Below are positions 4,712 through 63,539 of a stretch of DNA of 64,000 nucleotides, piece by piece. Numbering within the stretch: the stretch's first letter is position 1; each line of letters starts with the position of its first letter. The stretch is from Clytia hemisphaerica (lineage: Eukaryota > Cnidaria > Hydrozoa > Leptothecata > Clytiidae), in NCBI GenBank assembly GCA_902728285.1, contig CACVBU010000359.1:1836386-1900385 (forward strand), given 5' to 3'. Both the position numbers and the translations under genes were made by a program. A model generated the notes under the pieces. It was not told the DNA's origin and did no database searches. It saw only the letters and a list, made by a program, of their open reading frames with translations.

Positions 4712-5075
4712 AGAGCATCCGTTTGTGGTTGGATTCTAGAATTGCGCGATTGCTTTTAAGGAATTTCAAAAATGGAGGTTTTTGGCATTTGGTGGGAAAA
4801 TGAAAAAAATGTTCCAGTTTCAGCTACTGACCGACCGACCGACCCATTTTTCAAAGCTTCTAGGACACGAACCAAACAATCAATTGGGCCTGGCCTAGGG
4901 AGGTCAGTCAAATTTTCGAACATCATAATATATATAAGGGGCCACTCACATATTGATTTTTCCCATGCTTAGCGTCATCCCGACGCTATAGGATGGGTGG
5001 GTTAAATCAAGCGATGCTAAGAAAATCTAGTAGAGATATCAATTTTCAAGGCCCAACAGATGCTCAAATTTCCAG

Positions 5076-5424
5076 AGGACCCTGCCGACGCACCGGACTG
5101 TCCGGTGTATTTGTCCGGTGGCAAAAAGTATCCTTTCGCTACACCGGACGCAATAAGTCCGGTGTCAGTCCGGTGTTGCATACAGGGAATTTTGGACACC
5201 GGACATTTATGAAACAAAAAAAAATTAAGAAACACCGGACGCACCGGACTGGTCATGTCCGGTGTTTTGATTGTCCGGTGGAAAAAAATATCCTTCTCCA
5301 ACACCGGACATCCGACTTTCTTAAGTCCGGTGTAGAGATTGTCCAGTGGTAAAAAAAATTCTCATTTTACACCGGACTTTCGCGTGTCCGGTGTTCGTTA
5401 AGTCCGGTGCGTCGGCAGGGTCCT
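5076..5424. mobile_element. MITE built from CACCGGAC/GTCCGGTG octamers
   Basis: The ends AGGACCCTGCCGACGCACCG and CGGTGCGTCGGCAGGGTCCT are perfect inverted repeats. Between and within them I count seven CACCGGAC and nine GTCCGGTG octamers in about 320 bp, plus one degenerate GTCCAGTG. Such dense two-orientation motifs resemble transposase-binding subterminal repeats. The open frames on both strands are artefacts of the repeat. Copy 2 is at 26211-26559. Confidence 0.85.
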
Positions 5425-23205: not shown

Positions 23206-23768
23206 GACACCGCCTGGATAAAGAAAGGCTGTGTGGCATCAATGGTGATGAGAAGCACCTTTTATCCCTGAGCTCAAACTTTCCCTGAAACGATCAAACA
23301 CCCAAACCACGAAAGCCCTATGTTCTTCTAGTCGTTCTAATCTATAACTGACGACAAATTTTTGAATGAATTTGTTTAGTACTTTTTTGGTGGTGTGGTT
23401 CAAGGTGATTAACGCTAGTTTTTGGAAAAGATAAGAGGGGGTAAATATATTCAAAGCACATGTATGAAGTACATCTTTTACCTTTGGTAGATTCGAGTGG
23501 TGTAAGGATTCGTCTCTTTCATCGACATTAAGTGTGATTTCTTTTTTTTTTGTTGCTTGACAGAAACTTTCAGTTCGCCATTTTCTTCGTCTGTATGTAT
23601 TGGTAGATCAGCCAATCACAGCGCGTTGATTGTGAGGATTACGTCACCTTTTCAATTCCTAATTGTACGGTAAACGATAAATGTACTGATACGAGATTTT
23701 ACCACTGACCTTTATATAACCCTGGACCAAACAATATCTGCCATCTTTGATTGGAGTTTTTTTAGAAT

Positions 23769-25846: not shown

Positions 25847-26210
25847 AGAGCATCCGTTTGTGGTTGGATTCTAGAATTGCGCGATTGCTTTTAAGGAATT
25901 TCAAAAATGGAGGTTTTTGGCATTTGGTGGGAAAATGAAAAAAATGTTCCAGTTTCAGCTACTGACCGACCGACCGACCCATTTTTCAAAGCTTCTAGGA
26001 CACGAACCAAACAATCAATTGGGCCTGGCCTAGGGAGGTCAGTCAAATTTTCGAACATCATAATATATATAAGGGGCCACTCACATATTGATTTTTCCCA
26101 TGCTTAGCGTCATCCCGACGCTATAGGATGGGTGGGTTAAATCAAGCGATGCTAAGAAAATCTAGTAGAGATATCAATTTTCAAGGCCCAACAGATGCTC
26201 AAATTTCCAG

Positions 26211-26559
26211 AGGACCCTGCCGACGCACCGGACTGTCCGGTGTATTTGTCCGGTGGCAAAAAGTATCCTTTCGCTACACCGGACGCAATAAGTCCGGTGT
26301 CAGTCCGGTGTTGCATACAGGGAATTTTGGACACCGGACATTTATGAAACAAAAAAAAATTAAGAAACACCGGACGCACCGGACTGGTCATGTCCGGTGT
26401 TTTGATTGTCCGGTGGAAAAAAATATCCTTCTCCAACACCGGACATCCGACTTTCTTAAGTCCGGTGTAGAGATTGTCCAGTGGTAAAAAAAATTCTCAT
26501 TTTACACCGGACTTTCGCGTGTCCGGTGTTCGTTAAGTCCGGTGCGTCGGCAGGGTCCT
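26211..26559. mobile_element. CACCGGAC MITE, copy 2
   Basis: Second copy of 5076-5424, with the same terminal repeats and octamer pattern. Confidence 0.85.
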
Positions 26560-42600: not shown

Positions 42601-45600
42601 TGCCAAGAACAATATTGAATTGTTTAGAGTAGAGTAAAAGGGCTTCGTTGACTCCATTTGAGAATTCCAGTAGTGGAGTGAAAAAAGGGGCAACATCTTC
42701 ACGAATGTATAATGCAACACCGCCACTGTATCTACCATGTTTGGCTTTTGGTCGATTTCGATCCTTTTTAAAAATTCTATAACCTTGTATCTCAAGCTCA
42801 GCTTTATTGTGATGTTTCGACAACCAAGTTTCAGTTATAACTAAAAATATTTGATTGTCAGTGTGTAGAATGTCACGTAGGTATGGAACTGATGACGGTT
42901 TTGTTTGTGGGCACAAGCCTTGGATATTAAGAAATGAATATTTTGTTATTGGTGTAACGTTGGATATTGATGGTTCGGTAGATGGTTTGTTCGGTTGAAA
43001 TTCAGGTTTTTGGATTGCATCAATGGTTGTGGAAGGATTGGAGGATGGAATCTTAGTTGATTGTTCTGATGGAATCTTAGTTGATTGTTCTGATGATTTG
43101 GAAGTTGAGGTGGCTGTTTCATTTCGTCTCGTATCAGTGACAGCATTTCTGTTCTGAAATTGTCCAATAGTTTCTGAAAATCCAGCTGTTGAAGGGTGTT
43201 CGGTGAGCTGATCTTTCTTTGTGTAGGGGGCTTGCGCTTGGTGCCTTTTACATGAACAAAATTACAGTTGTCATTAAAGCACTGACTTATTTTGATTGAT
43301 GATGAACACATTCTTGGATGGAAATGAGGGCATTTTGTTCCTGCGTTGCATCCTTTAGGGCTTTTGTTGCCATGTCTCATCAGCTTCGGACAAGCTTTGG
43401 GATGTTTGTACTTGCAGCCGTTTCCTTTAATACCATGTTTGCATTTTCCCTTTTTATAGAAAATGCAAATAAGTTCCTCGTTTTCGTTATTTTGAGAAAG
43501 GTTTTCTTTTGGAGAAAAGTCACTGCTTTTTGAAAAATTGTTATTTTGTGAATTTGTTTCTGTGATATTTTCTGAGGTAAGCATGATACTGTTTTGGATT
43601 TCTCTTTGAAATTTATTTCGCATAAACTCAGTTCTTCCTAGGTAGATATCGCTGTCCTGTCTGTTGGTGACAACAATATTTGGTGATAATGGTATATGCG
43701 GAAGAGTTCTTCTTGATGATGGAATACTAACATTTTGGTTAATATCTTTAATTGTATTAGGAGATCGTTCATGTAATATGGTTCTTTTTGGTGATGGAAG
43801 ACTGGTGCGTTCGAGAATAGATTTAGTTTTAATTGCAGTAGATTCTTCTTGGAACTTGGTTGGTGGTGAAGTTTCGTGATTATCACTGGTTTGAGGTTTG
43901 GAGTTTGGAAAGTTGGCAATTTTCGTTTGGCATGATGTGCATATGTAACAGACACCTGGAATGTTGAATATGGGAAATCTCAATTCTTTGTTTTCAGTCA
44001 TTAAGTTCATACTTTTGAGATGGTCAATATAGCACTGTTTGTGAACCTCTTGGCCACACACAATACAGTTAATAAATGGTTGATGATCGAGTTTGATTCT
44101 GTATGGTTCAGTGCAGATTTGACAAATGTCTTCAAAATAATTTTTTATTTTTAGGCAAAGCTTCTTGACAGCTTCATCTTTAAGTCGGATGGTGTCGACA
44201 GGAGCTTTGGATAGAAAAGATAGAGTGTCCATAATAACGTCCTTGTTGAACGACGATTTCAGAGAATTTATGTTTTCTTTCGTAGGATTTTCTGGATTGT
44301 ATGATCTGAGGCAATCTCTGATTTTAGGTGTTGAAGCCTGCTCTGCAAGTTCAGCGAGGGATGTTTTCCAGCCTTGAATCACGTCCGAAGAGACACCGTT
44401 AACTTCAGTAGATTTAGACATTTTAGGTAGTCTCCGCAACGGAAACCAGAGACTGGAGCACTTAACTGGTATATAATGAATGTAGTAGGAGTCAGTCTAA
44501 ACCATAGAATTGCGAAAAGATGAAAAGTTACCTGATCAGCTGCACATGGGAATATCAGATTCACTGTCATGTGCAGCTGTTCCTCAGGATTTGGCAACAG
44601 GACCCTTGTTGCTGACTTGGAAGTAAAAATATAAACGTATACCTCTATGATCCAGGGCTAACCTGGTGTGTTAAAGCAATGTGGTCTTTAGTAATCTTTT
44701 CTTGCAGAGAATTATGGTACCACAACTGGTCCAGTAGCGATTGATGTTAGCCAGAGATCCAATGAAATATATATGGCCAATTTTTGTTATTATTTGATTA
44801 TCTTTGATATTGATCCAATTGATACAACCAATACCAAAAAGGTAATAAAAACTTTTGAAGGAAATAAAAACTAAAAGTGAAAAAATAAAAAGTAAAAACA
44901 AGATTTCAAAAGAACTTCAACAATCTGAAGTTAAAATCAGAATTTTTGCAAAAACCGTTGGGAAAAAATGAATGAAGGTGAAAGAATAGGCTGATTCGTG
45001 AAATTTTGTCTACGCCAAAATTTTTGATTTTCGATTTGCGTACAGAAAATCTATCCACTAAAGATAATATCATTATCATTGAAAAAGAGAAATTGATTTT
45101 ACTATAGAATTTACTTTCTGAATTAACTCTTTTTTATTTGCAGAACCGACAGAACTTTTGATGGACGTGCAAGCGCCTGACGGAATGGAAGATTCTGAAA
45201 TCACCACTAGTATGAAATCCCTCCAAAACTTCGACTTCGACTTCGAAGTGTCACCAACCCTTGCAAAATCATCTCCTACTTTTGAAAATGAATCTACAAG
45301 CCCTGTTGAACATCCGAAAAGTCTTGGTCAAAAACCATCAACGCCCCAGAACAATGCAACTCCAACTAAAGATCTGACAAAACAATTTGATGAAGGTGAA
45401 CAAACACTCAGGAGATCTGCTAGAAAGGTGAATTTGATATATTTTTCACTCTTTCCGTGAATGTTTCACATCCTTGAATTGACCAATCTTGCTCCACATC
45501 TATGTCAATCCAATGTGAAAAAGCTTGTGAATTAAAATTGACGATTAAGCAAATGTTATCACTTTTATTTAAAAACAAAACCTTTAAGCAGTCGATATTG

Positions 45601-48600: not shown

Positions 48601-51600
48601 TGAACATCATGGCTACAAAATCATAAACAGTATCATTTAATTTGGAGTTTTAAAACCTTTTCAAGCCAAAAAATACTTTCCAGAACTTAGAGTTGGTATT
48701 TGTTTATCTTCCAAATCTATTAAACAGTTCTCATGAAAGGTTTTTGAAGTCTGATTGCAAAAAGTATGGAACACAAAAAAACTGATCATCGAAAACAAAC
48801 ATAAAATTTCACCAATATTCTATCCAAATAGAGTATCCAAATATCCAACAATACAAATAGCGCCTAAACTAGTCAACCTCTTGACGTTTGAATCAATTTT
48901 TTGTCGGTTGAATGCCTGACAGACATTTCGCACACGTTAAGTTATAATTATTCTCATTAAATGCAATTCATACCTCCTATAATAATCAAGCAGATTGCAA
49001 GAGGGAAGTAATCATTACATAAGAGAACATACCTGTAATAATTTAGTTGGTGTTTGAGCCTTCATCTTGAACAAAAATGAGAAAACATCCAAGCAAAATC
49101 AGTGTACAATTAATACAACTTTCAAAAAGTCTTTCAAAGCTTTTAGGTCAATAAGTATGAGCAGCCATTTCTGTGGGTGTATGTCAGAGCTACACTAAAA
49201 TGAATAAACAACATTTGAAACATTGAATTTTCCTTCACAAGTCTCAAAATCCATAAAAAAATCAAAACATTGACCAAGAGCCAAAACGTGAATTTCAGGC
49301 GCCATCTTGGATTTGGTTCGGAGCAAGAAAGCCACGGTCGCAGTAGAATCGGTTTTGTTTAGCCCACGCATCCAAAGACGGCCCGAGCAAATCGATACAT
49401 TTTATGCGAATGCCGCGATTGAATCGTGAAAAGTACTCTGAAATTTCAGAGTGTCGGCCATCAAAGAAAACCCGAGAACCTTCGCAGGTCTTCTTGCAGA
49501 ACCATTCCCTTTAGAGCGCATGCGTGGAATGCATGGAGCACGAAGAGCTGCTTGGAGGTTAGATCGAAGCGCGCGAAAGTAGAGACTTGCCTTTACACTT
49601 GTTTTTTTTATACCGTCGTCAAGACGAATTTTCCTTGTATTTTTACCAAAAGCGCCACTAGAGGTTGATGGGTGTATTTAGATGACGTTCCTCATCTTTT
49701 GTTCCCACAGGTACGAGTTCCAGTAAAAAGAAGAGGCGTAAAAGAATGAACATGCCATCCAGCCGGAAACCGAAAACTAAAGTAACGAAGGAGAACTCAC
49801 CACCCATCCAGAAAAAGAAACACAACTTCCAGGCTAGGTATTGAATGTGAATTAGATACTTCCGCTTTGAATGGTCACTCTTTTTTACCATGTGGAAACC
49901 GTGTCAGCTAATTCGCTCAAGAATAGTTTCTAGTGCACAAACCGAGTGGACTTTTGTTAATGGTTCATTCACCAGCTCAACTTCTTCTGATGCGCCTACC
50001 CACAGATTTTTTATAACTTTGAATTTCATTTTCTCTTCTCAGTGATGGTTCGTTTACCGTGGAAGACCTCGATGACGCCACACTGTTGGTCAATTTCCCG
50101 AAGTACAAGCACTTTCACTGTCTCATCAAACACCAAGGTTCGAATGTCTCCTTAACTAGAACATGTTTTATGGTCTCTTCAGTTAACAATGCCTTACAAA
50201 TCTTACTCCATATTTGTGCTCCTCGTGCGTTTTTTAGTTATAGAGACTCCATTTTATCACATTAGGTATGACCTCTGTATTTTCATTGAAGTCAATATTT
50301 ATATATGGGCTTTGATTTTTACCAGCAGTAATTTTATCTGCAAGAACATCCTTAGAAGACTACTCTCGGTTACTAATAGCCGAGGGGTTTGGAATAAGCG
50401 GCGGGGGGGGGGGGGTTGGAATAAAAATGTCCTGGGTGGAAAACTTTTGAAAAGGAGGCTAATACAGCAGAATTAGGACAAAAGAAAGAACTTTCAAAAA
50501 CATTTTTCCAAAAATGAATAAGCGGGGGGGGGGAGTTGGAATATGTCCTGGGGGAAAATTTTTGAAAAATTAATTAGCGGGGGCACAGGGGGGGGGACGG
50601 CTCCATTAGGTACCCGAGAGTACCTATTAAAAGCCTGTGAAACGTACGAAACTCTAAACATGCTGTACTCTTTTCGTTATTTCAGGGGATTCTCTTAATG
50701 ATGTGATTGTGGGAAGAAATTACCGTAAGAAACACTTTTTTTAGGATGGGCTCTTCCAGAAAATATACATGGAGGGTGGAGGATATCGTGTCCGGGGATA
50801 GTGAAATATCTACAAGATTTGCTTTGTCCGGGGGTAAACCTGCTCTAATTTGAGGGTAATCTTGCTCTGTTGCTATCCGGGGGGGAGGTGTTCAAAAGTC
50901 ACGTGGGGGTAAATTTTCAAAAAATGTTATATCCTCCCCCCATATTGAATATTTTCTGTAAAAGCCCAATCATTTCATCAATCTTTCATCGTGTTTTTTT
51001 TAAAGTCGTTTATATTCGTATGCCTTTCGATTCAAAACTGTTATTCGTGCTTGCCTCCGAAGCCTTGGTAGATGTTTCAAGATGCTTCTGTGTTACATGT
51101 TTTTTCTTTTATAAGCATAACGTTTATAAGCATATACAGACTAAGTTTTGGTACCTAAACAATGGCTCTATTAAATTTGGTTGTTACTATAACGAGGAAC
51201 GAGAATAGTAACAAGAAGTAGCGAGTAGGTAACGAGAAGTAACGAGTGCTTAAATGGAAGTAACGAGTACTAGACCTAACTACGGGTAATTGCAAAATTG
51301 ACGTTCCATTGTCTTGCTTTTGTCAACCAAATAGTTAATAAAAGTGAAAAAAATGTAAGATATGTTACTATAATCTACATGTTTTTTATAAGAACGTCGA
51401 AAAATATTGAACTTTTCGGATGTTCTTAAATTTTTAGCGTTATAACCTTGAAATGAAACTCTTTCCCATGCATTTCCTTGAAAGATTGCATAGAAGATTG
51501 CAAATCTTAGAGCTAATAAGAATAACGATGTTGCAATTCGTGACTTCATTATGTTAACGAAAATATTTTTTCCCTTAAAATAATAAACAGTATCAAAAAC

Positions 51601-54600
51601 TCAAATAATTATCTCGAAAATTCTATGTACAAATTTCAACGATTATAATTAATTATTTGAGTATTAGTCTTTTAAGTTTAATCATCTGAAGAAACATCAC
51701 TATTGGATTCATCTGAAACATCACTACTGGTTTCATCTGATGCTAATCAAAAATTAACCCCTGTTTTGTGACATTTGTACAGTCAGCCACAACTTTGCTC
51801 ATAGAGAGAAACCATTTTGTGGCTTACATTTGTAAATGCATCTGTTGTTAAGCTGAATAGTTCAGCTTTCCGTCGCAAAAAGAATGAAATTTTGTGGCTG
51901 ACTCAAAATTGATCTATAGCTGTCTAAAGTGTGAGTAAATTCTGTGGCTGACATGCCGAGTGGCTTACCCTACCTGCAATCTTTGAGAAGCTATTTCTCA
52001 GCAATGGAATTAGATATGACATTAGTTCCTTCTGCGAGTTCTCAGAAAAGGTTTGGATTTCTCATATTCAATCCAAAAATGTGGCTTACATATTGTTAAA
52101 TGAGAGAAAATGTGGCTTACATCATAAAAGTGCTGTGATTTTTTTATTTCAATATTTTCTTTCACTTTGATTAGGAAAACCACCAATTTATGGCTGAATA
52201 TCAAGGAAAAAAGTAAAATATAGTTGTTAAAAGTACATTTTGGTGGCTTACGGACTCGATAAGAAGCTCTATTAAAATGGATATAAATGCATTATAGATC
52301 TTTGACAAAGATTTTATTAAGATTTTCCAAGTAATGGATAGCCGAATGTTTATTTATTTATTGACACATTACATTTTGTATTAAATTGTGGCTTACTGCC
52401 CTTCTGTGAGTAAAAAATGTATGGAGCAGGTTAAACGCTTAATTTCTGACAAAAATATCCCTTTAATGTAAGCCACAAAATAGAACGTTTAACAGTGGAA
52501 TATCATGTACATTTAATGCTTTTCGTAAAATTCAATCTTTCTACCATCGAGAGCTGAAGGTTTCTTTTTTGTATCATCTCTAGTTTTGATGTGGCTTACA
52601 TTCTAAAAAAATCGACATTTTTTGATTTGCAGCCACAATTTTGGCTCAATTAACAAAATTTTTTTTTTCAATCATATTCTCGTCTTGAGTTCTATAAGCC
52701 TCTGAGATTTGAAGGCTAGATTCAAATACCTGGGGAGTTATTTCAAAAAGTTGTTTTTGGCCATTTTTTCCAATGTCACACTATTTTTGATTAGCATCAT
52801 CTGAAGATTCTACTATTCAACAATCATGAGATTCGTCGTGCATCTCATGATCATATTACATGGGTGATCATCATGACCAAATCCAGAAATTCCTTCCACG
52901 ACGATGATGATGTTCTCCCACTCGAAACCGATAATTAATTCATAGTCAACAACTAATAAAATGTTTCCGTCTTTGAGATATTGATATGGACTTTCACCTT
53001 CATTGAAATCGTTTTGATCTTCCCCATACCTTTTCCATTTTTTATTATTATTATTATTATCATTTATTAGGTTCAATTTCATACAAAATTGTTCTTCCCC
53101 CTAAACATAAATATCAAAATAAAAAGCACTAAAGAATAAATAGTATTAATAAATATAAATATTTTTACAAATTTTCTGGATAAAATTTTATTAAAACTAG
53201 ACCACTAGATAGACATGAAATGGAATTGGATAACTAAGACAAAAAGGCTGAATGTAGAATTGTATCGAAATAGGGACTAGCAAAAGGATAGTGGATAATA
53301 GTAGTGGAAATATTTAGTAAGTAATAAAGTAAAAATAGATCTTCATAAATTTATAATTTTATTGTTGTGTTGCACGAGTATGTGCCCTAGATTTAAAAAA
53401 CAATTTTGATTCTTTAATAAATTCTTTCAGGTCTTTGATTTCCCTGATATTTTTCGGGAGTTCGTTAAAAATTTGAGCTTGGTCCTGAAATGTCTTAGAT
53501 AAGCCAAAATCAATTTTAATACCATCATCCTGCGAGCGAAGCTTCCGAGGCTGAGTTACTTTCACCAAAGAAAGATATGAAGGCCATTTTTTATCATTAA
53601 GGGCCTTGTAAACAAGTTTGGAAACATTAAAATCAATAAGCTCTTTTATTGGTAACCATTGCAGATCGACAACATCTTTCAGTGTGGCATATCGGTTTAG
53701 GACATATCCTGCAGCAATGTTCTGTATACGTTGCAGACGATTTAATAAGTAATCGGGGATCTGTCCGAATACGACTATGGAGTACGCTATTTTCGATAGC
53801 ACTATAGCTTCAGCGAGTGATTTCCGAACTTTAAATGGTGTGAAACGTTGGAAATTACGAAGAGCTCGAATGGTACCATGACTGGATTTTATAATTTGGT
53901 TGATATGGTCGGACCAGGATAGACTTTTATCAAAATGAAGACCAAGAAGCTTGACGACATCTTTTTGTTCAATTGATTTTTTTGAACAAGAAATAAGATA
54001 CGAGTAGTCACTACATAATTTGTGATATGACGCTAGACGTTTGGTTGAAAAGATGATGTATTGCAGTTTATCAGCATTGAACAAGAGATTATGATCAGCT
54101 GACCAGGTGGAAAGTGATTCGATATCAGTCTCGATTTCCAGGATGCATTGAAGTATATCACGAATTTTTGAGTGACGATAAAGCGTTGTGTCATCAGCAT
54201 ATTGGATACTGAGAGAGGAGATTTGGTCAGATAATTCGGTAACATATAGGTTAAATAAAACTGGACCCAAAATACTGCCTTGAGGGACACCAAAGTGAAT
54301 GGGTTGAACGGGTGATCTTTTATCGTTCACTTGCACAAATTGCTGACGGTTTGTGAGATAGCTTATAACGATTTGCAATGACATGGAACTAAAGTTTAAC
54401 TTTTTAAGTTTATCAATGAGGGTAAAATGGTCGATCGTATCGAATGCCTTGGAGTAGTCGATAAGAATTGATAGTGTAATTTCACTTTTATTCATAGCTT
54501 TGATTATATCATCACGTAGTTTTAAGAGTAGCGTTGTTGTGGTGTGCCCTTTCCGAAATCCAGATTGATTTGGACGGTAAAGTGAATTCCTTTCAATGAA

Positions 54601-57600
54601 ATCGCATAATTGTGTTAAAATAACACGTTCGTAGACTTTCGATAAAACCGGTAGGATTGATATTGGTCTGTAGTCTTTTAATTTCGTTGGATGGTCAATT
54701 TTTGGGACTGGGCTGACTCGAGCAATCTTCCACTTATCTGGGAATAAATGCTTATCGATTGAATTGTTAATAATGTTAACAAGAGGAGATACAAGATACT
54801 CATTGACTGGCTTCAGGTATCGTACCGGTATATTGTCATACCCGCTTGAGCAATCATTTTTCAGTTTTTTAAGTATACTCGAGACCTCTTCATAATTCGT
54901 ATGCTTGATTGTAAAAACATTCTCATCATTTTCGATGGATGGGTTACCCAGTAAATTATCATAATTTGCAGGTTTATTAGGTTTTTTTGTGAGGTTAGAA
55001 GCAAGATTACAATAGTAATTGTTCATGTCGGAAGGTTCGTGGTTTATTTTAGTGTTCTGCTTGGTTAGAATTCGGTCAATTGTTCTCCAGACTATCGATG
55101 GATTTTTCGAAGATAGAGCTTTCCGAAGAAATTCGTTTTTTAAGCTCTTTACAGTTTTTTTGTATGCTTTAAGAATCTCTTTATAGCGTGCATGATGATC
55201 ATTGTTAACGTTTTTGTTCGCTCGTGCATCTTCGAGTAATTGACGTTCTTGAATAATTTTTGGATCTTTCATCCACGGTGCAACCGGCCTGGTTATCCGT
55301 ACTCTTTACAATGGAGCGTGTGATTCGATACAGTCATATACAAGTTTATTGAGAATCGATATCTGATCATTGGGGTCGTCGAAGCTAAATACAAGGGATA
55401 ACGGAAGTTGTTGAAAGTCGGATGTGAAAGAATTGATGTCAAAATTCTTTTCGTCTCGAATGTATTTATATCTCGGTTGAAAGCGTTCTTTTTCAATTTC
55501 AATTTTCCATTTCAATTTCAACGTGTTCAATGTTTGAAGATCTTCAGCCTCGTATGGTGGAAGATTATCAGATATCACTAGCACTCCATTGTTCGTGATT
55601 TTTCTCATTTCTTTCACGGCATCTTCAAAAGAGACGGAATAGTATGGTTTCTCTCCGTCAGGGTGGTTTGGTGGTGGAAGTACTAAACCCTCTTTATATC
55701 CCGAACTTTTTCTTTCTTCAAAGCTTAATGCCTCCTTTACTATACTTTCACAGTTTCTTAAATTCACGTCAAGTTCAAATTTTATGAAGTCGTCATACAC
55801 CGAAAGATCTCCATCACCTGATAAAATACGCTGATGACCGTATCCATTCAATGCAATCCAAATCACATCAACATATTCTTTGAGATCCGTTATAATTTTT
55901 TTCGGTTTTTCATCGACAATCCAACATTCATCGATGAATAATGCATTGATGTTTTTTGTTTTAATCCTCTTCACCAGCTTTTCATTTTCGTCATCATCGA
56001 TCTGTTTGTAAAATTAAAGAAAAATATTATTTTATAGTAAATCTCTTCCATTTGCATGCAAAGGATCCTAAAAGTCTATTACGGAAAAATGCACGACAAA
56101 ATTGAAATTACACTCGTTTCTGACTTTTTTAAAAATAATACCAGTAAGCTTAAAGATTTGCAATATTAAGTGTAGATCAGAGCATTATTAGTCTTTTTAT
56201 AATTTTTTTTTCTCATTTTTTCAATATGTAACAAATATTTAAGTTCTAAATTTTTTCTCACACTAGAGAATTTAAACGGTTTTCCGAATGAAAATAACGC
56301 AGTAAAGTGAATCATGAGTCTGCGTTGACAACCTAGTTTGCAGTCTTAAAACTATCACGATCTCCATTTTCTTTTACTTTTACTGCTCTTATCAGTTATT
56401 CTACTATCGTTTGTAATCAATAAAAATATATTGTTACAAAGTTTGGAGGCGATCAATAAATCAAAGCCGTTTTTATATGGTTAGATTTAGAATACGAATC
56501 AAACTAGATTCAAAACGCAACTTACCATTCCGTATTCGTCTATGATTCCATAGACGTCAACTCCGTATTCTTTTCCCAATTCATCTTTCAACCTCCAATC
56601 AAGAAGGGTTTCTAAATTATCAGTCCTCTGAATGACATACATAACACGTCCTTTGTACTCTCCCATTCCACTCAATTGCTTTGCTTTCTCCTGAAGGATG
56701 AAAGACTTTCCGCATCCGTAGGGAGCCAAAAGAATGATCTTATCGAATTCAGAAGTGTCTGTCTTCATGATGGGAAGTTGACGCTGACTGTAAAAGAGTA
56801 TGTTGTCAGTGGTGCAGACGGTATCGATGGCTTGTGAGATATATTCCACCCAGTTTGATGTGGTAATGGGTGCTGTTTTTGAAGCATGAATTGCAAACAC
56901 AATGATTCTTAGGAGGTCTTTGACTTGATTTACTGCTGGGATGAAAGGTATTCCAGAGGAAACGGTAGGATATTTTGCCAGCAAGGTGGATAACCAACAT
57001 TTCAAATCTGTTTCTTGGTCAATGTAATGTTGATTGTTGAAGGAAAGATCGTCCGTGCCAACACATATGACTGGATAATATGTCCAGCCGTGTCCCAACT
57101 GATCACCCAATTTCTCCTCTATCAGTTTATGGTATTTATTTAACTGGTCAAAAGCTTTTCCAGTTAGTGTCCGTTTGATTTCAACGCCTATGATTAATTT
57201 CTTGGTCCACGAGACAAGAAGGACGTCAATCTCCTGATGCATTTTCTTTTAGACATTGGTGAGAAAATTGATGGAACTGAGAATCACAGTATCTTCAAGA
57301 ACAGGGTCGTCTTTGAGGGAATAGAGTTTACGAAAGAATGAGTGTTCTCCTTTTTCACCAAGCTCCGATAAAACTAATCCGAAAAGCCATTTTATTGTTG
57401 AGTGGGATGGTTGGTTTTGTTTTACCAAGTTTTCGACTTCTTTTTTAGCGTCTTTTAATGTCTGGAGATAAAATAAGAGATTTTTACAATTCAATTCGCA
57501 AATTGAGGTTAGTATATGTAGTCACATGATTACGAGTGCAATTCGAGAATAATTGCACGAGTGAAGTCCGAAAGGACGAGGAAAATTCGAAACAAAAAAA

Positions 57601-60600
57601 TCACGAGTGCAATTTTCGAATTGTCTGAGTTATCATGTGATTACGAGCTAATCGCACTTTAATCGGTTTCACTGCTTTTTCCCTGTCAGAAAAGTAAATC
57701 ACACTGAAAAATTTATATTTTTCTTTTATCGTTGTTTATAGATTTTCTTTTTCACAAAATCAATTTCGAATGCAATTAAAACGTTCGATAAAAAATGTAA
57801 GAAAAACATTAAAATCAATTTTGTAAACATTGGTGCGGCATCGAAGAAAGTGATTAACGACTAATTGCTCTCTACAGGATGAAATTAACGATTAATTGCT
57901 CTCTTTGAAGGGGTGTGATTATTAAGTTTTTAAATACAAATCTCTCTGAACATTGATAAAATTGATAAGTTACCTTTTTGAGAGTCTGTTCCAGTTTTGA
58001 TCCTGGTGATTTTGAAGCCAATTCCTGAATACAAGCTTGGATGAACGTCTTGCTGTCTTCAGTTGTTGATGGTAAAGTCAGATTGTTAAGAATTGGTTGA
58101 CGAGAGGAAGAACTTTGGATCAGTTGATTGCCAATCTCTTCCATCAAAAGATACACGATTTTGACATTCAAGATCCAATAAGAGAATTCCTTTGCGTTGA
58201 TTTCATTACCGCTAGAGTTGTTTAATTGGAGATCATAGAAAGCCTGAAGTTCTCCTGTAAACCAGTAGTCTGGTGAATCCTTCTTCAAATTATCCAAACA
58301 TTTCTTGAGAGTGTTTATATCAACATCGTAGTCGAGGAGATGTACGGTTGAATCCTTTTTCGTGTATTGGTGAGATTGAAAAACATTAGGGATGAATATT
58401 GGATTGTGGCGGTTGGTGTCAAATAATGCTGAATCAGCATATTCTCTAAGGAGAAGCTGATCAGCGGCAAGAATGGGATCAGTAAATAGTTGACCATTCC
58501 CGAGATTGAACTTTCGGTTCTGGTTGTCAATGGTAGATTGTGCATTTGCTTGTATTTGATGGTATAATGACGTCTGTGGTAAGCATTTGGAAGGATCGAT
58601 AATCTTCGATTTCAATGTAATGATTTTCTGGTGTAAATTCAATTGTGATGCCATTTTATATTTTTTGAAGAAACTCCTTTTTTTGCATATAGACAAAACA
58701 GTAGTTATTGAAAAAACAACACATATAACAGCCTTTTTATCAAAATAGAGAAAGTGATAGTTCAAAAATGATCTTGTTTGCTTTATAAACAGATTTTTGT
58801 CAATGATATAGTCATACCACGAGACCTTCATTAATTAGTTTTTTTAAATAAGGTCTGTTTTTTATAAGAACAAAGAAATATCATATTAAGATAAGGCTTC
58901 GATTACCAAATTACCAAGAAGAAATTAAAAACATTTCAAGGCTTTGCGGGCTCTAAAACAAAAATACTTACGAAATGGTTGAAAATAAGAAAATGTTAAG
59001 AAACTTTTAACATTAAAACTCAAAAAGTTAAGAACATTCCGAGGTTTCAAAAATTTTCTATGTTCTTATAAGAAAAACGTATAGTAAGATATTTTGTGGT
59101 TTTGTTTTCTTTTATAAACCGAACAAACAAACAGAATTTCATAAACACGTTTTTTTTCGGGAACATGTTTATAAGAAACTTGAGACTGAAAATGGTCCGA
59201 GAAATAAGGAATTGTTAAAGAACTGGTCCGACTGAGAATAAGAAAACGAACAGTAAAAGAATAAGTAAAGGAACAGAGAGTTTAACTTAAATTTACACAC
59301 ATTCACAAAAGCTTAAACAAAAAGATGACAAAATATTGAGGAAATAACATTCAATGAACGTCTTTTTCTGTACTTTAGCCCATTTTATACTTATACATAC
59401 TTAGCAAACCTAATTTTGGCAGTTAAGTAAATAAGGAACTCGATAAGGAACTTTGAGTCTGAAATTCTCTTGAAAAATAAGGAACTCCAGGCTCGAAGTC
59501 AAGTAAAGTTTCCTTATAAAAAAAACATGTAGCACTTCTATTCCACTACTCTCATATCACAAGATGGTACAAAAGACTTTTTTTAATATGCTATAATAAC
59601 ACTACCCGTGGTTACCAATTACTACATACCTTTATAATTTATGTTATAAGCAAGATTGCCATACCTCTCCGTTGCACTTTTATCCCCTTCTTAATAATTA
59701 TAAAGAATGCTTTAAGAAGCTGGCTCTGAAAAATCCTTGAGCTTTTAGACAGCTCAAGAATTGTTTCCACAAAGGGCCACTACGAACAGAACAAGAACAG
59801 TAACACAGATCTTCAAGAACAGGGTCATCTTTGAGGGAATAAAGTTTACGAAAGAATGAGTTTTCTCCTTTAAGAAGAACACTCATTCTTCCGTTAACTC
59901 TTTTTCACCAAGCTCCGATAAAACTAATCCGAAAAGCCATTTTATTGTTGAGTGGGATGGTTGGTTTTGTTTTACCAATTTTTCGACTTCTTATCTTTTA
60001 ACGTCTGGAAATCTCAAAAGAAAACTCAAATAATCAAAAGCTATTTCATAATGATAACTAAGATTAAGTTACTAAGATTAAAGTAGTAGATTAGTATTTA
60101 TTTTACAGTTTCTGTTACCTTTGTACTTTTTCATCTAGTCAAATTGCAAGTTGTTTTACCAAAAGTATTCCTGATTTCAAAGGATAATCTTCTTACTGTA
60201 TCAACCTTCCTATAGATGCACTTTTATGTGTGCTCTTTCTGTTCTAAAAACAAAGTGGTGCTCGAGAAATATAATTGTCATTTCAGTACCATAAAGGACC
60301 CAAATGATAACTGAGGCATTATTGTCAAGGTGTCACATGCCAAATTTGAAAGTAAACAGACAAGCCGATCACGAGATATAGGTACCCGGATTCTAGTACC
60401 AAAAAGGCCTAAATTATGACGTCATCACCAAAATTGACAAGAACTGATTAGGTTAATTTCAAGGCAATATTGTCAAGGTGTCACATGACAAATTTGAATG
60501 GAAACAGACAAGCCAGTTACGAGATATAGGTGCCCGGATTCCAGTACCAAAAAGGGCCCAAATGATGACGTCATCACCAAAATTGACAAAAACTGATTAG

Positions 60601-63539
60601 GTTAATTTCAAGGCATTATTGTCAAGGTGTCACATACCAAATTGAAAGGAAACAGACAAGCCAATCACGAGATAGGTGCCCAAATAGTAAACCTAGCAAT
60701 GACGTCATAGACCTTAAAACAATTGACTGGTGGCAAAAGCAAGACAATGGAGCGTCAATTTCACGACTATAATATTCGTTACTTATAGGTCTAGTTCTCG
60801 TTGCTTCTATTTAAGCACTCGTTACCTACTCGTTACTTCTCGTTACCTACTCGTTTCTTCTCGTTACTTCTCGTTACTCGTTACTTTTGTTACTTTTGTT
60901 ACTTCTCGTTACTTCTTGTTCCTCCTTTTAGTAACAACCCACAAATTTTCAATGTGAACAAGTTTTATATCCGTCTCACCTATCACCAAAATGCTTCCAT
61001 ATTCCACTCTCTCTCTCTTTCTCTTTCACAATAGACAACACAAAACAGTTCAAGCAAGGTGCACAGAGTTTAACCGCCCAGGATGAATGGTATTACTCTT
61101 GTGTAGAACAATCTATATCCAACCAAAAGTTAAGCGAAAAATACACAGATATGACTGAAGTGTCAAACGTAAGTTTTCATTGGGTCATTCCATTTTATAT
61201 CCATCTTTCTCATACCTTTCAAGTGAGGGTGAACGAACTAAAATCAGTCTTTTACCCCCTGGAAATTTTAATATAACCTTTTACCCCTTAATAAAATGAA
61301 AAAATACTCTTTTATACTCCCCTGTAATTCTTCTCCGGTGAAGCCCCAGGATATATCTCCCGGCGGACGTACATTTCTTGGGGGTCACAGGAGAAGAACT
61401 TCAAGGGAGTATAAAAGAGTATTTTTTCATTTTTCCAAGGAGGTAAGAGGTTGTACTAAAATTTTCAGGGAGTAAAAGACCGATTTTAGTTCGTTCACCC
61501 TCACTTTTAAGGCATGAAAAAAAAATTTCTAGGGTTCTAATGCAAGTTTTGCCATTTCCCAGGGGGTATCCACACATTTCTAAGAATATTTTTTTGCCTT
61601 GTAAAGGTTCGTCCACTCCCCTGTATGGAAATTTAATGGAACAGTCCATTTGATGATAAATCAAAAGTGATAAAATCTACAATAGACTACTTTGCCCTAA
61701 GGCTTAGGTTGCGTTAGCATGAAAAAACATGTAGCAAATTATAGTTAGTTCTTTATTTCTTAACATGGATTCAGTGGATTAGAGAATTAGGGTTCAATTA
61801 AAGTGGCGCCTCTTTGAGAAAAATCTACTAAAAGATGAATAATATATGAAAATATATCAACGCTCTCGTTTTTAGTTGATATCAGAATTGAAGAGATTGT
61901 TCTCATTCTGGCAACCATTCATCATGGACTTGTACGAAGTTGTTCGCCGAAGCCAAGGAGAAGTAAACTTCACCGACCATAGGTTACTTCCTTGTACCTT
62001 TCTTTCTTTTCAAAAGGATAACGTGTAACCACTGGCCTTTATATATCCCTGGAGAAAGTTATATCCGCCATCTTTGATCGAAGGTTTTTTTTTGAATTGG
62101 TACCCGTAAAGAAGCCATTGCAGTGTTAAAAATTAACGTCTAACGGCGCTACATCATCAAAAGTTTTCGAGAAAAGTAGATCTAGCACTCTCGATGCATT
62201 TACACCGCTATTGAGTTGTGCCGCCATTAGGATATCACTTTTCAAAAAACTCCGATCAAAGATTTTGCTTGGCCGGGATTGAGAAACTTGGTCTAGGGTA
62301 TATATAAAGGTCGGTGCAGTCTGGTCTCCACTTTCGCGCGACATAAGCGAAAACTTTATAATGTTTTTGTAAGTTCATTGCGGTCGGTTAAAAAATAAGG
62401 CAATTCAATTGAATTCAATTGAACTGCCTTCAACTTTTAGTTTTTTTTTCGCTTAAAACTCTTTTAAATGACGCAATCTTTTCTGCAGGCAAAAAGGATT
62501 GACAAAAAATTTTTGCTCATTTTCGCGCAAAGTGGAGACAGACCTTTAGGTTCAGAATTAAATGCCATAGTATCAGCATGAAGGTAATAAAGATACAGAT
62601 GGAGAGAAAACGTCTCGGTAATGACCTAAATGATCGTTGAAATCTTTTATAAATCTATTCAAAGCGGCTTTTCTTTGATGTACCATCATTGGAAGCAAAA
62701 AAATCCGAAATGTAAATTTATAAGAACAGAAGTGAGAATGTTATCCTGATTGAAATAAACTTATGATGCAAAAAGTTCTTGTTCGAACGCGATACAAAAA
62801 TAATTTTCTCAAAGTCAGGTTACAAAAGTTCTATGATTTCATATCGATGTATTTTTGGGCGAACATAGTGCTAATTTTGAGAGTTTCAGCACATTTTCCT
62901 TGAAAATTTCTTCATTATAAATCTTTACGTCTAAAAGGGAGGGGGTTTTCAAATTCTGATGGATGATTAATTAAAAGGTTACCTAATCGTAATATAGAAT
63001 TCTTTTTGAAATTTATCGATGATTTTATGAGAGGGGACCCTTAGAAAAATAGGATTTTGTTCTTGTTACGGCAACCTTTTTCTTATTTTGATCAACAAAG
63101 TTATTATCTCACAATAGAGTTGTTAAAAATCCAACATCTTTTTATTCAGTTTTTTAAGAACTTAAATATTCCCACGAGTATACCCAAAATTAATCATCTT
63201 ATTCCCAAAGCAACCAAAGAGCTGTTTGCTTCCGATGATAAATCAGAATAGAACAAAAGGCATTGACTCTCTATCTATCTTTATTACCTCCATGGTATCA
63301 GCAACAAATAGCGTAATCTTTTTTTCTGGTATATATAGATACAATATTTTTTCACAGAATTTTATTTTACTTTCATTTATCTGTTCGACTCGAAATGTTT
63401 TCTTTTTTCTTTGCAGTTTGACATGTGAAATGTTGGATTTGGTGAACTACCGAGGAAGCTTTACCTTCCAGGCTACGTTCGATTTGAGCGTTGAGAAACC
63501 GAAACCGATCTTTTGGTTGCAACATGACACAGGCTTTAA
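33170..63539 (+). CDS. KNL1: Kinetochore scaffold KNL1 (CASC5/Spc105) homologue, 3' end outside window
   Basis: Sixteen exons join with consistent phases: 33170-33189, 33373-33406, 33729-33758, 34505-34599, 35047-35075, 36590-36606, 37342-39586, 45144-45427, 46024-46288, 46710-46814, 49711-49837, 50043-50137, 50686-50724, 61035-61168, 61876-61982 and 63417-63539. KNL1 is the outer-kinetochore scaffold. It docks PP1 through N-terminal SILK and RVSF motifs, recruits Bub3/Bub1 through phosphorylated MELT motifs and joins the Mis12 complex through C-terminal RWD domains. Here SRRRSCLK, KSKTVSF and a long exon with MDLT, MNIT and MNFT motifs give that order, and the last exon resembles an RWD strand pair. 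About 1,250 residues are visible. The introns carry several transposons. Confidence 0.72.
35118..36256. mobile_element. ACTCTCGGGTACC-family MITE, split by an insertion
   Basis: The left part (35118-35249) starts ACTCTCAGGTACCTAATAGC, and the right part (36114-36256) ends GGCTATTCGATACCTGTGAG. Together they align with the intact copy at 36815-37091, and an 864-bp element interrupts them. It lies in a KNL1 intron. Confidence 0.7.
35250..36113. mobile_element. 864-bp TIR element with 9-bp target duplication
   Basis: TAGCCTGGATATCC on the left and GGATATCCAGGCTA on the right are perfect 14-bp inverted repeats. GTCCTAATT lies directly outside both ends (35241-35249; 36114-36122), and the uninterrupted target sequence is seen in the sister MITE at about 36950. 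A 9-bp duplication suggests a Mutator-like (MULE) origin. Its open frames (up to 95 codons) show no transposase motif. Confidence 0.85.
36815..37091. mobile_element. ACTCTCGGGTACC-family MITE, intact copy
   Basis: The ends ACTCTCGGGTACCTAATAGC and GGCTATTATGTACCCGAGAG with a final T are inverted repeats. The interior carries ATTCTTATTCCAACCCC words and C-runs. It lies in a KNL1 intron just before the large exon; related copies are at 731, 35118 and 50362. Confidence 0.8.
37342..39586 (+). CDS. KNL1: KNL1 large exon with MELT-like motifs
   Basis: About 748 codons, entered in phase 0 after TTTTCTCATAG and left in phase 1 at GAG/GTATAT. It starts [23 protein letters not shown] is a good MELT-type motif. 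Further candidates are [46 protein letters not shown] and [12 protein letters not shown], the last few forming a short degenerate repeat array with TKET. Long Ser/Thr/Pro/Asn-rich low-complexity stretches lie between, as in the disordered middle of KNL1. When Mps1 phosphorylates MELT threonines they bind Bub3-Bub1. The last 120 residues are more helical ([20 protein letters not shown]). Confidence 0.75.
39979..42916 (-). pseudogene. LINE ORF2: endonuclease and reverse transcriptase, two frameshifts
   Basis: The endonuclease part shows [30 protein letters not shown] and [11 protein letters not shown], the usual metal-binding and catalytic motifs of LINE AP-like endonucleases. The reverse transcriptase part (41717-40467) shows [36 protein letters not shown] and SSFADDTRL, so the catalytic FADD box is intact. 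The C-terminal part (40599-39979) is in another frame, with [13 protein letters not shown]. Family knowledge places this layout in the CR1/Jockey group. Two frameshifts make it non-functional as read. Confidence 0.85.
42946..44439 (-). CDS. LINE ORF1 with PHD-like and CCCH zinc fingers
   Basis: An uninterrupted 497-codon frame beginning [15 protein letters not shown]. Around residues 115-170 it has Cys pairs and a His-Cys set ([24 protein letters not shown]) that fit a PHD/RING-like treble clef. Around residues 325-405 there are three CCCH-type units ([20 protein letters not shown]...[17 protein letters not shown]). ORF1 proteins of LINEs bind element RNA, and CCCH fingers would suit that. 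It lies directly upstream of ORF2 in the transcription direction. Confidence 0.75.
   Translation of the reverse strand: MRRLPKMSKSTEVNGVSSDVIQGWKTSLAELAEQASTPKIRDCLRSYNPENPTKENINSLKSSFNKDVIMDTLSFLSKAPVDTIRLKDEAVKKLCLKIKNYFEDICQICTEPYRIKLDHQPFINCIVCGQEVHKQCYIDHLKSMNLMTENKELRFPIFNIPGVCYICTSCQTKIANFPNSKPQTSDNHETSPPTKFQEESTAIKTKSILERTSLPSPKRTILHERSPNTIKDINQNVSIPSSRRTLPHIPLSPNIVVTNRQDSDIYLGRTEFMRNKFQREIQNSIMLTSENITETNSQNNNFSKSSDFSPKENLSQNNENEELICIFYKKGKCKHGIKGNGCKYKHPKACPKLMRHGNKSPKGCNAGTKCPHFHPRMCSSSIKISQCFNDNCNFVHVKGTKRKPPTQRKISSPNTLQQLDFQKLLDNFRTEMLSLIRDEMKQPPQLPNHQNNQLRFHQNNQLRFHPPILPQPLMQSKNLNFNRTNHLPNHQYPTLHQ
45144..50724 (+). CDS. KNL1: KNL1 middle exons 8-13
   Basis: The exons are 45144-45427, 46024-46288, 46710-46814, 49711-49837, 50043-50137 and 50686-50724, phases compatible throughout. 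Exon 8 encodes [12 protein letters not shown]-like acidic sequence ending RRSARK. Exon 9 has [11 protein letters not shown] and an acidic [16 protein letters not shown] run. Exon 10 has a basic stretch with [12 protein letters not shown]. Exon 11 has [13 protein letters not shown], a strong nuclear localisation signal. Exons 12 and 13 encode [20 protein letters not shown] and [13 protein letters not shown]. No individual domain is recognised here; membership rests on phase continuity, orientation and position. Confidence 0.6.
45635..45724 (+). other. Possible alternative terminal exon of KNL1
   Basis: After an acceptor-like TATGATATAGAAAG, a 29-codon frame ([20 protein letters not shown] and a short tail) follows in phase with exon 8 and ends in TAG. 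There is no good donor before the stop and no clear poly(A) signal, so it could be an alternative 3' exon or chance. Confidence 0.25.
47005..47449. mobile_element. G-run-rich inverted-repeat element
   Basis: CATAGTTTGCACCCCCC on the left answers the CCCCTCTGCAAACTATG end on the right. The interior is full of GGGGGGAT words. It lies in the KNL1 intron between exons 10 and 11. Confidence 0.65.
47450..49710. other. KNL1 intron 10, right part
   Basis: No exon or complete element recognised. Direct repeats of GACATATAATTTTAATAA are near 47515 and of TTTTAGTCATTTTAAGTCAT near 47640. A GC-rich island with GCGCGCGCTGCGATCG is at 48053-48070. Confidence 0.35.
50362..50621. mobile_element. ACTCTCGGGTACC-family MITE
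   Basis: The ends ACTCTCGGTTACTAATAGCC and GGTACCCGAGAGT, with long internal G-runs and the word AAAATGTCCTGGGTGGAAAA, place it in the family of 36815-37091, in the opposite orientation internally. It lies in the KNL1 intron between exons 12 and 13. Confidence 0.75.
51173..51326. repeat. Left terminal inverted repeat of the 9.8-kb unit
   Basis: Contains GTAACGAG words and, at its inner side, TTGACGTTCCATTGTCTTGC. It pairs with 60728-60948 read in reverse complement. Confidence 0.75.
51678..51733 (-). pseudogene. Displaced acidic C-terminal tail of the nuclease-ATPase gene
   Basis: On the minus strand this reads [18 protein letters not shown] followed by TAA. It continues the host-gene sequence across the hAT-type MITE inserted at 51741-52796: SSD sits on the far side, next to the target duplication. 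A TAGTAGAA stretch before that point puts a stop in the main frame, so the tail is no longer joined to the ORF. Confidence 0.55.
51741..52796. mobile_element. hAT-type MITE with 8-bp target duplication
   Basis: The ends TGCTAATCAAAAAT and ATTTTTGATTAGCA are perfect inverted repeats. TCATCTGA flanks both sides (51733-51740; 52797-52804), the 8-bp length typical of hAT elements. TGGCTTAC occurs many times inside in both orientations, probably subterminal transposase-binding motifs. No transposase frame. Confidence 0.88.
52813..53040 (-). pseudogene. Nuclease-ATPase gene, 3' part beyond the LINE
   Basis: Downstream of the LINE poly-ATA tail the host frame resumes with [15 protein letters not shown] and continues with [19 protein letters not shown] and [11 protein letters not shown] before TAG. 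The codons KWK are present on both sides of the LINE within the 10-bp target duplication AAATGGAAAA. Confidence 0.7.
53041..55502 (-). mobile_element. 5'-truncated CR1/Jockey-group LINE inserted in a coding exon
   Basis: The element runs from 55502 (5', truncated within ORF2 after the endonuclease) to 53041 (3', with an ATAATAATAATAAT-type tail). AAATGGAAAA flanks it on both sides (55503-55512; 53031-53040), a 10-bp target duplication. It interrupts the last exon of the nuclease-ATPase gene. The 5' truncation, A-rich tail and variable target duplication are typical of target-primed reverse transcription. Confidence 0.85.
53359..55272 (-). CDS. LINE reverse transcriptase
   Basis: An uninterrupted 637-codon frame. 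Motifs in order: [50 protein letters not shown] and [11 protein letters not shown] (the YADD catalytic box), then [17 protein letters not shown] and the thumb/C-terminal region. Upstream codons (55502-55308) are LINE sequence in the same frame, with DINSFTSDF and ESHAPL then TAA. Reverse transcriptase copies element RNA at the nicked target. The missing endonuclease makes this copy non-autonomous. Confidence 0.85.
   Translation of the reverse strand: MKDPKIIQERQLLEDARANKNVNNDHHARYKEILKAYKKTVKSLKNEFLRKALSSKNPSIVWRTIDRILTKQNTKINHEPSDMNNYYCNLASNLTKKPNKPANYDNLLGNPSIENDENVFTIKHTNYEEVSSILKKLKNDCSSGYDNIPVRYLKPVNEYLVSPLVNIINNSIDKHLFPDKWKIARVSPVPKIDHPTKLKDYRPISILPVLSKVYERVILTQLCDFIERNSLYRPNQSGFRKGHTTTTLLLKLRDDIIKAMNKSEITLSILIDYSKAFDTIDHFTLIDKLKKLNFSSMSLQIVISYLTNRQQFVQVNDKRSPVQPIHFGVPQGSILGPVLFNLYVTELSDQISSLSIQYADDTTLYRHSKIRDILQCILEIETDIESLSTWSADHNLLFNADKLQYIIFSTKRLASYHKLCSDYSYLISCSKKSIEQKDVVKLLGLHFDKSLSWSDHINQIIKSSHGTIRALRNFQRFTPFKVRKSLAEAIVLSKIAYSIVVFGQIPDYLLNRLQRIQNIAAGYVLNRYATLKDVVDLQWLPIKELIDFNVSKLVYKALNDKKWPSYLSLVKVTQPRKLRSQDDGIKIDFGLSKTFQDQAQIFNELPKNIREIKDLKEFIKESKLFFKSRAHTRATQQ
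55306..56003 (-). CDS. ATPase exon 3 fused in frame to LINE sequence
   Basis: After an ACAAACAG acceptor at 56004-56006 the host frame reads [25 protein letters not shown] (Walker B) and [13 protein letters not shown], up to KLKWK. There it runs in frame into the 5'-truncated LINE ([19 protein letters not shown]) until TAA at 55308-55306. The result is an accidental ATPase-LINE chimera. A single base change at that TAA would open it into the reverse transcriptase frame. Confidence 0.75.
56526..57461 (-). CDS. Nuclease-ATPase gene, exon 2 (nuclease core and Walker A)
   Basis: It enters after a TTTATCTCCAG acceptor and leaves at ATG/GTAAGT, phase 0 at both ends. The first 70 codons ([17 protein letters not shown]...) match a second, decayed copy near 59.8 kb. 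A TAA at 57251-57249 interrupts the frame, and the same frame continues with [11 protein letters not shown]. Motifs: EIDVLL and GVEIK (PD-(D/E)XK core), [12 protein letters not shown], and APYGCGKS (Walker A). The stop may be a real nonsense mutation, an assembly error or an allelic variant; a protein starting at the Met after it (57242) would keep the nuclease and ATPase. Confidence 0.65.
57521..57650. repeat. Small foldback repeat in an intron of the ATPase gene
   Basis: CACATGATTACGAG occurs near the left side, with ATCATGTGATTACGAG at the right side and GAGTGCAATT(C/T)TCGA words between, giving a partly palindromic unit. Confidence 0.45.
57974..58654 (-). CDS. Nuclease-ATPase gene, exon 1
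   Basis: It starts at ATG in good context (AAAATGG) at 58654. A longer frame upstream to 58831 has a hydrophobic low-quality stretch and is probably 5' UTR. The exon ends AAAAAG/GTAACT in phase 0. The 227 residues look helical ([41 protein letters not shown]). No domain recognised; it may be a target-recognition or oligomerisation region of the multidomain protein. Confidence 0.65.
58832..59690. other. 5' region of the nuclease-ATPase gene
   Basis: AT-rich, with several TTATAAGAACA and CTTATAAGAAA words in both orientations, suggesting MITE remnants. No exon seen. The gene's promoter should be here. Confidence 0.35.
59698..60010 (-). pseudogene. Decayed second copy of nuclease-ATPase exon 2 start
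   Basis: On the minus strand it reads [20 protein letters not shown], nearly the same as the start of exon 2 at about 57.3-57.46 kb, and includes the acceptor-like CCAG. It has a deletion near DAKKEVEN, an internal insertion and frameshifts. It lies upstream of exon 1, so it is a fragment of a tandem paralogue. Confidence 0.7.
60322..60720. repeat. 148-bp tandem repeat with TGACGTCATCA
   Basis: ATTGTCAAGGTGTCACAT recurs at 60321, 60469 and 60618, a 148-149-bp period over about 2.7 units. Each unit holds an ACGAGATA...GTGCCC segment and a TGACGTCAT word, a CRE-like palindrome. It sits just inside the right TIR of the 9.8-kb unit. Confidence 0.8.
60728..60948. repeat. Right terminal inverted repeat of the 9.8-kb unit
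   Basis: Contains GCAAGACAATGGAGCGTCAA, then TAGGTCTAGTTCTCGTTGC and an expanded GTTACTTCTC array, then TAGTAACAACCCACAAATTT at the outer end. It pairs with 51173-51326. Confidence 0.75.
61035..63539 (+). CDS. KNL1: KNL1 exons 14-16, coiled-coil and RWD-like start
   Basis: The exons are 61035-61168, 61876-61982 and 63417-63539; exon 13 (phase 1) joins exon 14, then phases 0 and 2. The sequence is helical first ([40 protein letters not shown]), then strand-rich ([28 protein letters not shown]). This resembles the start of the C-terminal RWD domain of KNL1, which binds the Mis12 complex. The last exon ends AA/GTAAGT in phase 2, so more exons lie beyond the window. Confidence 0.55.
61222..61505. 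mobile_element. 284-bp MITE with long arms
   Basis: AGTGAGGGTGAACGAACTAA on the left answers the TTAGTTCGTTCACCCTCACT end on the right. The arms run for about 110 bp each (TTTTACCCC, AAAATACTCTTTTATACTCC and their complements). It lies in the KNL1 intron between exons 14 and 15. The minus 87-codon frame is a repeat translation. Confidence 0.85.
62029..62316. mobile_element. TIR element A, diverged copy without the nested insert
   Basis: It starts CCACTGGCCTTTATATATCC and ends GTATATATAAAGGTCGGTG. The interior follows 3300-4036 (GAAGCCATTGCAGTG; CGGCGCTACATCATCAAAAG; CTCTCGATGCATTTACACCG) but passes straight across the site where the GGTACC palindrome is inserted there. Confidence 0.8.
62319..62545. 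mobile_element. Short MITE with CTCCACTTTCGCGC ends
   Basis: TCTCCACTTTCGCGC on the left answers GCGCAAAGTGGAGA on the right, 227 bp in all. It directly abuts the TIR element A copy. Confidence 0.6.
62546..63416. other. KNL1 intron 15, right part
   Basis: AT-rich, no element or exon recognised. The 64-codon frame at 63057 has no splice signals that would link it. Confidence 0.4.

Follow-up and report, generated by a model that had tools for sequence, protein, structure and literature searches.

A probable Pack-MULE carrying a nearly complete nuclease-ATPase-like gene in the hydrozoan Clytia hemisphaerica

The window analysed here, a 64-kb stretch of Clytia hemisphaerica DNA taken at its full length, contains at 51179–60939 a unit that is very probably a Pack-MULE, that is, a non-autonomous Mutator-like element (MULE) in which a host gene, copied from genomic DNA, has taken the place of the interior. 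The assembly gave 39 matches to the wnt family, which is not known outside animals. The ends of the unit recur elsewhere in the 417 Mb assembly (951 contigs), mostly without the gene, and in two places they enclose a candidate transposase. A preliminary description of the locus had placed the unit at 51173–60948 and had offered two explanations: a new class of large DNA transposon, or a cargo-carrying unit with terminal inverted repeats (TIRs) moved by another transposase. The second of these fits the results below, and a candidate source of the transposase exists in the same genome. The minus-strand, intron-containing gene that had been described between the inverted ends was recovered as well.

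The unit itself proved real, but its bounds had to be moved inward. Its termini are GGTTGTTACTA at 51179 and TAGTAACAACC at 60939 (the unit has no strand assignment), ends that it has in common with elements on contigs C161, C82, C915 and C659, and the outer 6 + 9 bp are target-site duplication. On the right, the duplication CACAAATTT occupies 60940–60948 and is the same as the 9 bp to the left of a sister copy of the unit on contig C223; on the left, 6 bp (AAATTT) of it remain at 51173–51178 (both unstranded). The C223 unit is flanked on both sides by a perfect 9-bp duplication CACAAATTT. A 131-bp stretch of its left flank that takes in the first three bases of CACAAATTT is absent from the window copy and from a third copy on C250, which we infer to be a loss in these two. 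Counted by eye, the duplication matches at 6/9 positions in the window copy and 5/9 in C250. Because this flank is absent from the window copy, and because AAATTT is its own reverse complement, the outer bases had previously been assigned to the inverted repeat, an assignment that the comparison with C223 corrects. The long inverted similarity between the ends is nevertheless far above chance (blastn E = 1.7e-28 over 155 columns with the low-complexity filter off). The left MULE arm (51179–51330, plus strand) consists of a TIR of ~150 bp, and the C915, C659, C161 and C82 elements all cover the corresponding C223 positions 753/756 to 908/911. The right arm (60014–60939, minus strand, inner end approximate) contains the TIR and subterminal repeats of ~148 bp; homology to the right arm of C915 begins at C223 position 8962, equivalent to ~60014 in the window copy.

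The unit had also been assigned to an intron of KNL1. It does sit between exon-like stretches, but the KNL1 identity found no confirmation: six flanking open frames scanned against Pfam gave no significant match. Several other features of the window were observed along with the unit. Two pairs of nearly identical open frames, ~20–21 kb apart (2834–3205 and 23242–23607; 4957–5349 and 26092–26484), appear to point to a direct duplication inside the window. A 458-residue open frame at 16140–17513 matched a KDZ transposase at 6.1e-5, with a sub-threshold 23.3 bits (Pfam cut-off 26.6), and a chain of long open frames on the minus strand at 39982–44496 resembles, by eye, another non-LTR retroelement. 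A dispersed repeat of ~0.72 kb at ~62577–63294 is 90–98% identical in more than 30 rows and is absent from the C250 copy.

A genome search with the right end of the unit gave at least 48 rows in at least 30 places (40 of 280 first-look candidates were scored). Among the matches listed, 27 of the 30 places had no match to the gene within 20 kb; the other three were the gene-bearing copies on C254 (the window), C250 and C223. A complete non-autonomous MULE of 2.65 kb at C161:159314–161967 has TIRs of ~900 bp, inner repeats of ~148 bp in both arms and a 9-bp duplication, CTTTTTTGC. The C82 element, also non-autonomous, is 1.1 kb long and has a target duplication that matches, by eye, at 7/9 positions. 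Both ends could be read in seven units: the target duplications were perfect in three (9 bp in C223, 9 bp in C161 and 8 bp in C659) and imperfect, as counted by eye, in the window copy, C250 and C82, and no matching duplication was found for C915. The duplications agree with the 8–11 bp described for MULEs (PMC6446971), and the long TIRs that mark such elements are present in the unit as the ~150-bp left arm and the longer right arm. We conclude that the ends of the unit are those of a MULE family. A Helitron was ruled out by the TIRs and the 9-bp target duplication; Helitrons have neither.

The two transposase-bearing elements with the same ends are located at C915:370944–379326 and C659:621080–629343. 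They are 8.3–8.4 kb long, are 99.1–99.4% identical where aligned (~8.1 kb) and have different flanks; two MULEs of 99% identity suggest recent activity. C915 carries two tandem copies of the left part of its element (C915:367068–370943), through an assembly artefact or a real duplication, and this doubling may account for the missing target duplication of that element. Both elements encode a multi-exon protein with the motifs VDTTF, GHDLDKA, WCTRH and TNGLESKH, which align with what we take to be the D, D, C..H and E motifs of two proteins from the same genome that match PF10551, the MULE transposase domain. Over ~400 residues of homology, the C915 product matched the first of these proteins, on C628, with a blastp E-value of 3e-24 and the second, on C662, with 6e-16. 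Against a PF10551 cut-off of 27.6 bits, the C628 protein scored 24.9 bits in one scan and 28.8 in another, and the C662 protein scored 29 bits. The transposase exons themselves had no PF10551 match up to E = 10 in a direct Pfam scan with two queries, and the assignment of a PF10551-type transposase to the members with these ends, and with it the MULE assignment, is therefore made through the intermediates only. In C659 the transposase exon used for comparison is broken up, its pieces being 95% identical, and a further copy of the transposase exon lies on C624, 2 kb from a matching end. Judged from its sequence, the C915/C659-type protein is a candidate for the autonomous-partner transposase of these ends.

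The gene-bearing unit itself was present in three places: in the window, at ~1291.5–1297.7 kb on C250, and at 33755–42750 on C223. The right flanks of all three are colinear, with gaps in C250, the left flanks match too, and in each the unit is 7–12 kb away from a long exon belonging to the surrounding gene. These common flanks indicate that the three copies represent one insertion in three haplotypes or duplicates. Both ends with the same gene and target duplications at different loci had been predicted as support for a new transposon class, but the matches listed gave no loaded copy outside this one insertion. Since only one insertion carries the gene, transposition of the unit with its cargo is putative.

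A fourth contig, C408, shares the right MULE arm and, at 90%, the right flank; its target sequence is CACAACTTT, and its interior is different. No gene match was found over 2.3 kb inward of the right arm, C408 is absent from the 131 rows of the gene search described below, and the interior contains a 124-bp satellite in 12.7 copies with 89% matches (C408:850900–853349). A right MULE arm without the gene is as expected if the MULE preceded the gene. Loss of the gene from this copy would explain C408 equally well, as would a place paralogous to the locus; in keeping with the latter, the surrounding gene's long exon was not detected on C408. No empty site was found in the genome (all five candidates were scored). 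A fourth copy of the long exon is present at C920:73301–76369, where the only gene row is 185 kb away and neither the unit nor its flank appeared among the matches listed; this is possibly an empty or truncated copy of the locus.

The captured segment covers approximately 51331–59106 on the minus strand and comprises the gene with its introns, its 3' flank and ~450 bp of its 5' flank, together with a nested LINE and a nested MITE. Homology to the gene copy C512b covers the segment between the left MULE arm and the start codon, and homology to the copy C775 extends ~450 bp further upstream at 74%. The retention of introns indicates that the capture was from DNA. At the left junction, MULE sequence ends at C223 position 908–911 and gene sequence begins at 911. 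The right junction is formed by a second, partial copy of exon 2 (approximately 59804–60012, minus strand), which corresponds to C223 8745–8960, matches C223 3346–3530 at 93–97% and abuts MULE sequence at 8962; it is separated by ~0.7 kb (59106–59804) from the captured 5' flank. This extra fragment suggests repair in place, and such filler would be expected from template switching during gap repair, under the gap-filling model set out in PMC8277862.

We considered the possibility that two separate MITEs in opposite orientations had come by chance to flank a dispersed copy of the gene. In favour of this explanation, MULE ends are common in the genome, and short paired copies exist. However, the outer 9-bp duplication matches across the whole C223 unit, and both arms stop on the inside at gene sequence, with sharp junctions and no inner MITE ends seen at either one. 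Chance flanking is thus highly improbable, and the arms are better read as the two ends of a single MULE.

The captured gene has three exons and a predicted product of 777–810 residues, with an N-terminal region, a D...ExK stretch and a P-loop with Walker A and B motifs. Exon 1 (57974–58654, minus strand) starts with MASQLN; its limits were set by eye from the reading frame and the splice sites, in the same way as for C250 and C223. Exon 2 (56526–57461, minus strand) holds the PD-(D/E)XK-like motifs and Walker A, while exon 3 (51678–56001, minus strand, low end placed by eye) holds Walker B (ALFIDE) and the motifs GFEW and RCTTNL. The window copy is broken. An in-frame TAA interrupts exon 2 at 57249–57251, where C250 and C223 are open, and exon 3 is split by two nested insertions, not mentioned in the preliminary description, that are absent from C250 and C223. 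The first is a 5'-truncated non-LTR retroelement at ~53041–55502 (minus strand; RVT_1, E = 1.6e-32) with target repeats TTTTCCATTT. The second is a MITE of ~1.05 kb at 51741–52796 (unstranded) with TGCTAATCAAAAAT ends and 8-bp target repeats TCATCTGA; its left part has ~17 further matches at 97–100% identity, and its size points to a hAT-like element. Spliced by eye, the gene has an open frame of 810 codons in C250 and 777 codons in C223. Between these two copies, pN was 0.054 and pS was 0.089 (Fisher p = 0.0067), with a patchy pattern, and dN/dS for exon 2 alone was 0.14–0.18 among the three copies. These ratios suggest some purifying selection after the insertion. Gene conversion by paralogues may explain part of the C250–C223 pattern, a reading that the patchiness of the substitutions favours. 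Even among these copies of one insertion, the region separating Walker A from Walker B is highly variable.

The gene belongs to a large family. A search with the central exon, exon 2, returned 131 rows in 117 places, with 65 rows in open frames of at least 500 residues. The rows are partly clustered, several contigs having at least three (nine on C594, six on C732 and four on C512); C668 is another contig with members of the family. Of all rows, only 3/131 lie within 20 kb of a listed TIR, these being the three copies of the one insertion. A tree of 22 sequences placed the captured copies in a single clade (support 1.0) nested in the C512/C732 group. The unit thus shows the marks of a Pack-MULE: it has no transposase, there is host sequence inside it, and relatives of that sequence occur without the ends.

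The family proteins are ~750–810 residues long and combine nuclease and P-loop regions. PD-(D/E)XK nucleases carry a D...ExK motif on an alpha-beta-beta-beta-alpha-beta core, and SF1 helicases/ATPases have Walker A/B plus the SF1 motifs. Residues D310, E325 and K327 were invariant in five of five aligned copies, two of them the captured ones, and so were GxGK(S/T) and DE. A structure model of one family member was weak (mean pLDDT 59), with an order of elements that fits the PD-(D/E)XK core. No row at E ≤ 0.001 was returned by a Foldseek search with this model, although nucleases of the PD-(D/E)XK type were among the top rows. The best Pfam and NCBIfam matches for five members were weak, with E-values of 0.001 and 0.003, and PADLOC gave a single match, to PDC-S26 (1.7e-4), in one of the five. 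The label “SF1-like” that had been given to the ATPase was not confirmed, the P-loop matches of the cargo being weak (DnaI, 0.003; Rep, 0.26). A contig scan of 324 pattern stretches confirmed no prokaryotic relative, and no phage relative was found with exon 2 as the query. From the conserved motifs and the weak model, the cargo protein is probably an ATP-dependent nuclease of this host family, and the nuclease-ATPase pairing is a feature of the host gene family and not of the transposon. A bolder proposal is that a MULE family of apparently recent date carries around intact members, introns included, of a nuclease-ATPase family of more than 100 copies, perhaps one for genome defence whose segment between the two Walker motifs is hypervariable, that the intronic captured copy is functional and that a DNA transposon is in this way disseminating a defence-like family; we consider this improbable.

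These results also bear on the proposal of a new class of autonomous TIR transposon, moved by its own nuclease-ATPase. The ends do flank the gene, its product has nuclease-like and P-loop motifs, and two copies (C250 and C223) keep open frames. However, most of what had been named beforehand as evidence against such a class was found: the TIRs occur without the gene at 27/30 of the listed places, the gene family occurs without detected TIRs (all but 3/131 rows at the 20-kb distance used), and the same TIRs enclose a MULE-type transposase elsewhere. Furthermore, the 12.5-kb region around C512b contains no inverted repeat flanking the gene, save short ones. We regard this reading as very improbable.

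The Pack-MULE interpretation suggests the following sequence of events. A MULE would have inserted at CACAAATTT in an intron. Gap filling with template switching would later have mended a break inside the MULE, with a gene of the C512/C732 group as the template, and would have left the additional fragment of exon 2 at the right junction. The window allele would then have lost part of its flank and gained the stop codon, the LINE and the MITE. The ends could be mobilised in trans by the putative C915/C659-type transposase, and the cargo protein would play no part in moving the unit. This order, with the MULE first and the capture by gap filling afterwards, is the somewhat likelier one. Alternatively, the gene could have been captured elsewhere and the loaded unit then transposed into the intron. 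The perfect 9-bp duplication around the loaded C223 unit is what such a transposition would leave, and the near identity of the C915 and C659 elements suggests recent activity. A second loaded insertion was not found among the matches listed, however, and on C408 a different interior follows the same MULE end and matching target; the exon-2 fragment at the junction likewise suggests repair in place. Capture before transposition is therefore possible but doubtful, and by our estimate capture in place is about twice as probable.

Pack-MULEs are best known from plants and have rarely been described in animals. The locus described here adds an animal case with a target duplication, seen in the sister copy C223, with sharp junctions and with a candidate autonomous partner elsewhere in the genome. 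Its captured gene is near-complete, and two of the three copies keep it open. C408, with its MULE end, matching target and other interior, helps in asking whether capture occurs by gap filling in place or before transposition. The plant Pack-MULEs, such as those of rice and KI-MULE, are presented in PMC6446971 as carriers of gene fragments, and protein-coding ones are described as rare in PMC8277862. Like the unit, they have MULE ends with host sequence inside, and their parental copies are not linked with MULEs (PMC6446971, PMC8277862); unlike those described in these two sources, the unit resides in an animal and holds a near-complete three-exon gene.

For animals, the survey in PMC8277862 reports 370 Pack-TIRs in 100 genomes, which resemble the unit in combining a TIR transposon with captured host sequence. 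Of these, 323/370 were hAT or Tc/mariner, whereas the unit is of the MULE type, and no Pack-MULE was identified in the animal reference genomes covered by that survey. Single-copy animal Pack-TIRs are explained there by gap filling (PMC8277862). At the Nv1 locus of Nematostella, a pack-MULE has been suggested from MULEs at both ends of an insert of ~15 kb (PMC9842752). This is likewise a large insert between MULEs in an animal; according to the same account, the Nv1 insert occurs at several loci, whereas the unit is one insertion. The Ssk-FB4 element of Drosophila, called a Pack-MULE in PMC8277862, is similar to the unit in its near-complete protein gene and long TIRs, and has target duplications of 9–10 bp. 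As described there, Ssk-FB4 is present at several loci, compared with the single insertion of the unit, and the FB4 transposase is given as unknown, whereas the unit has a candidate autonomous partner in the C915/C659-type elements.
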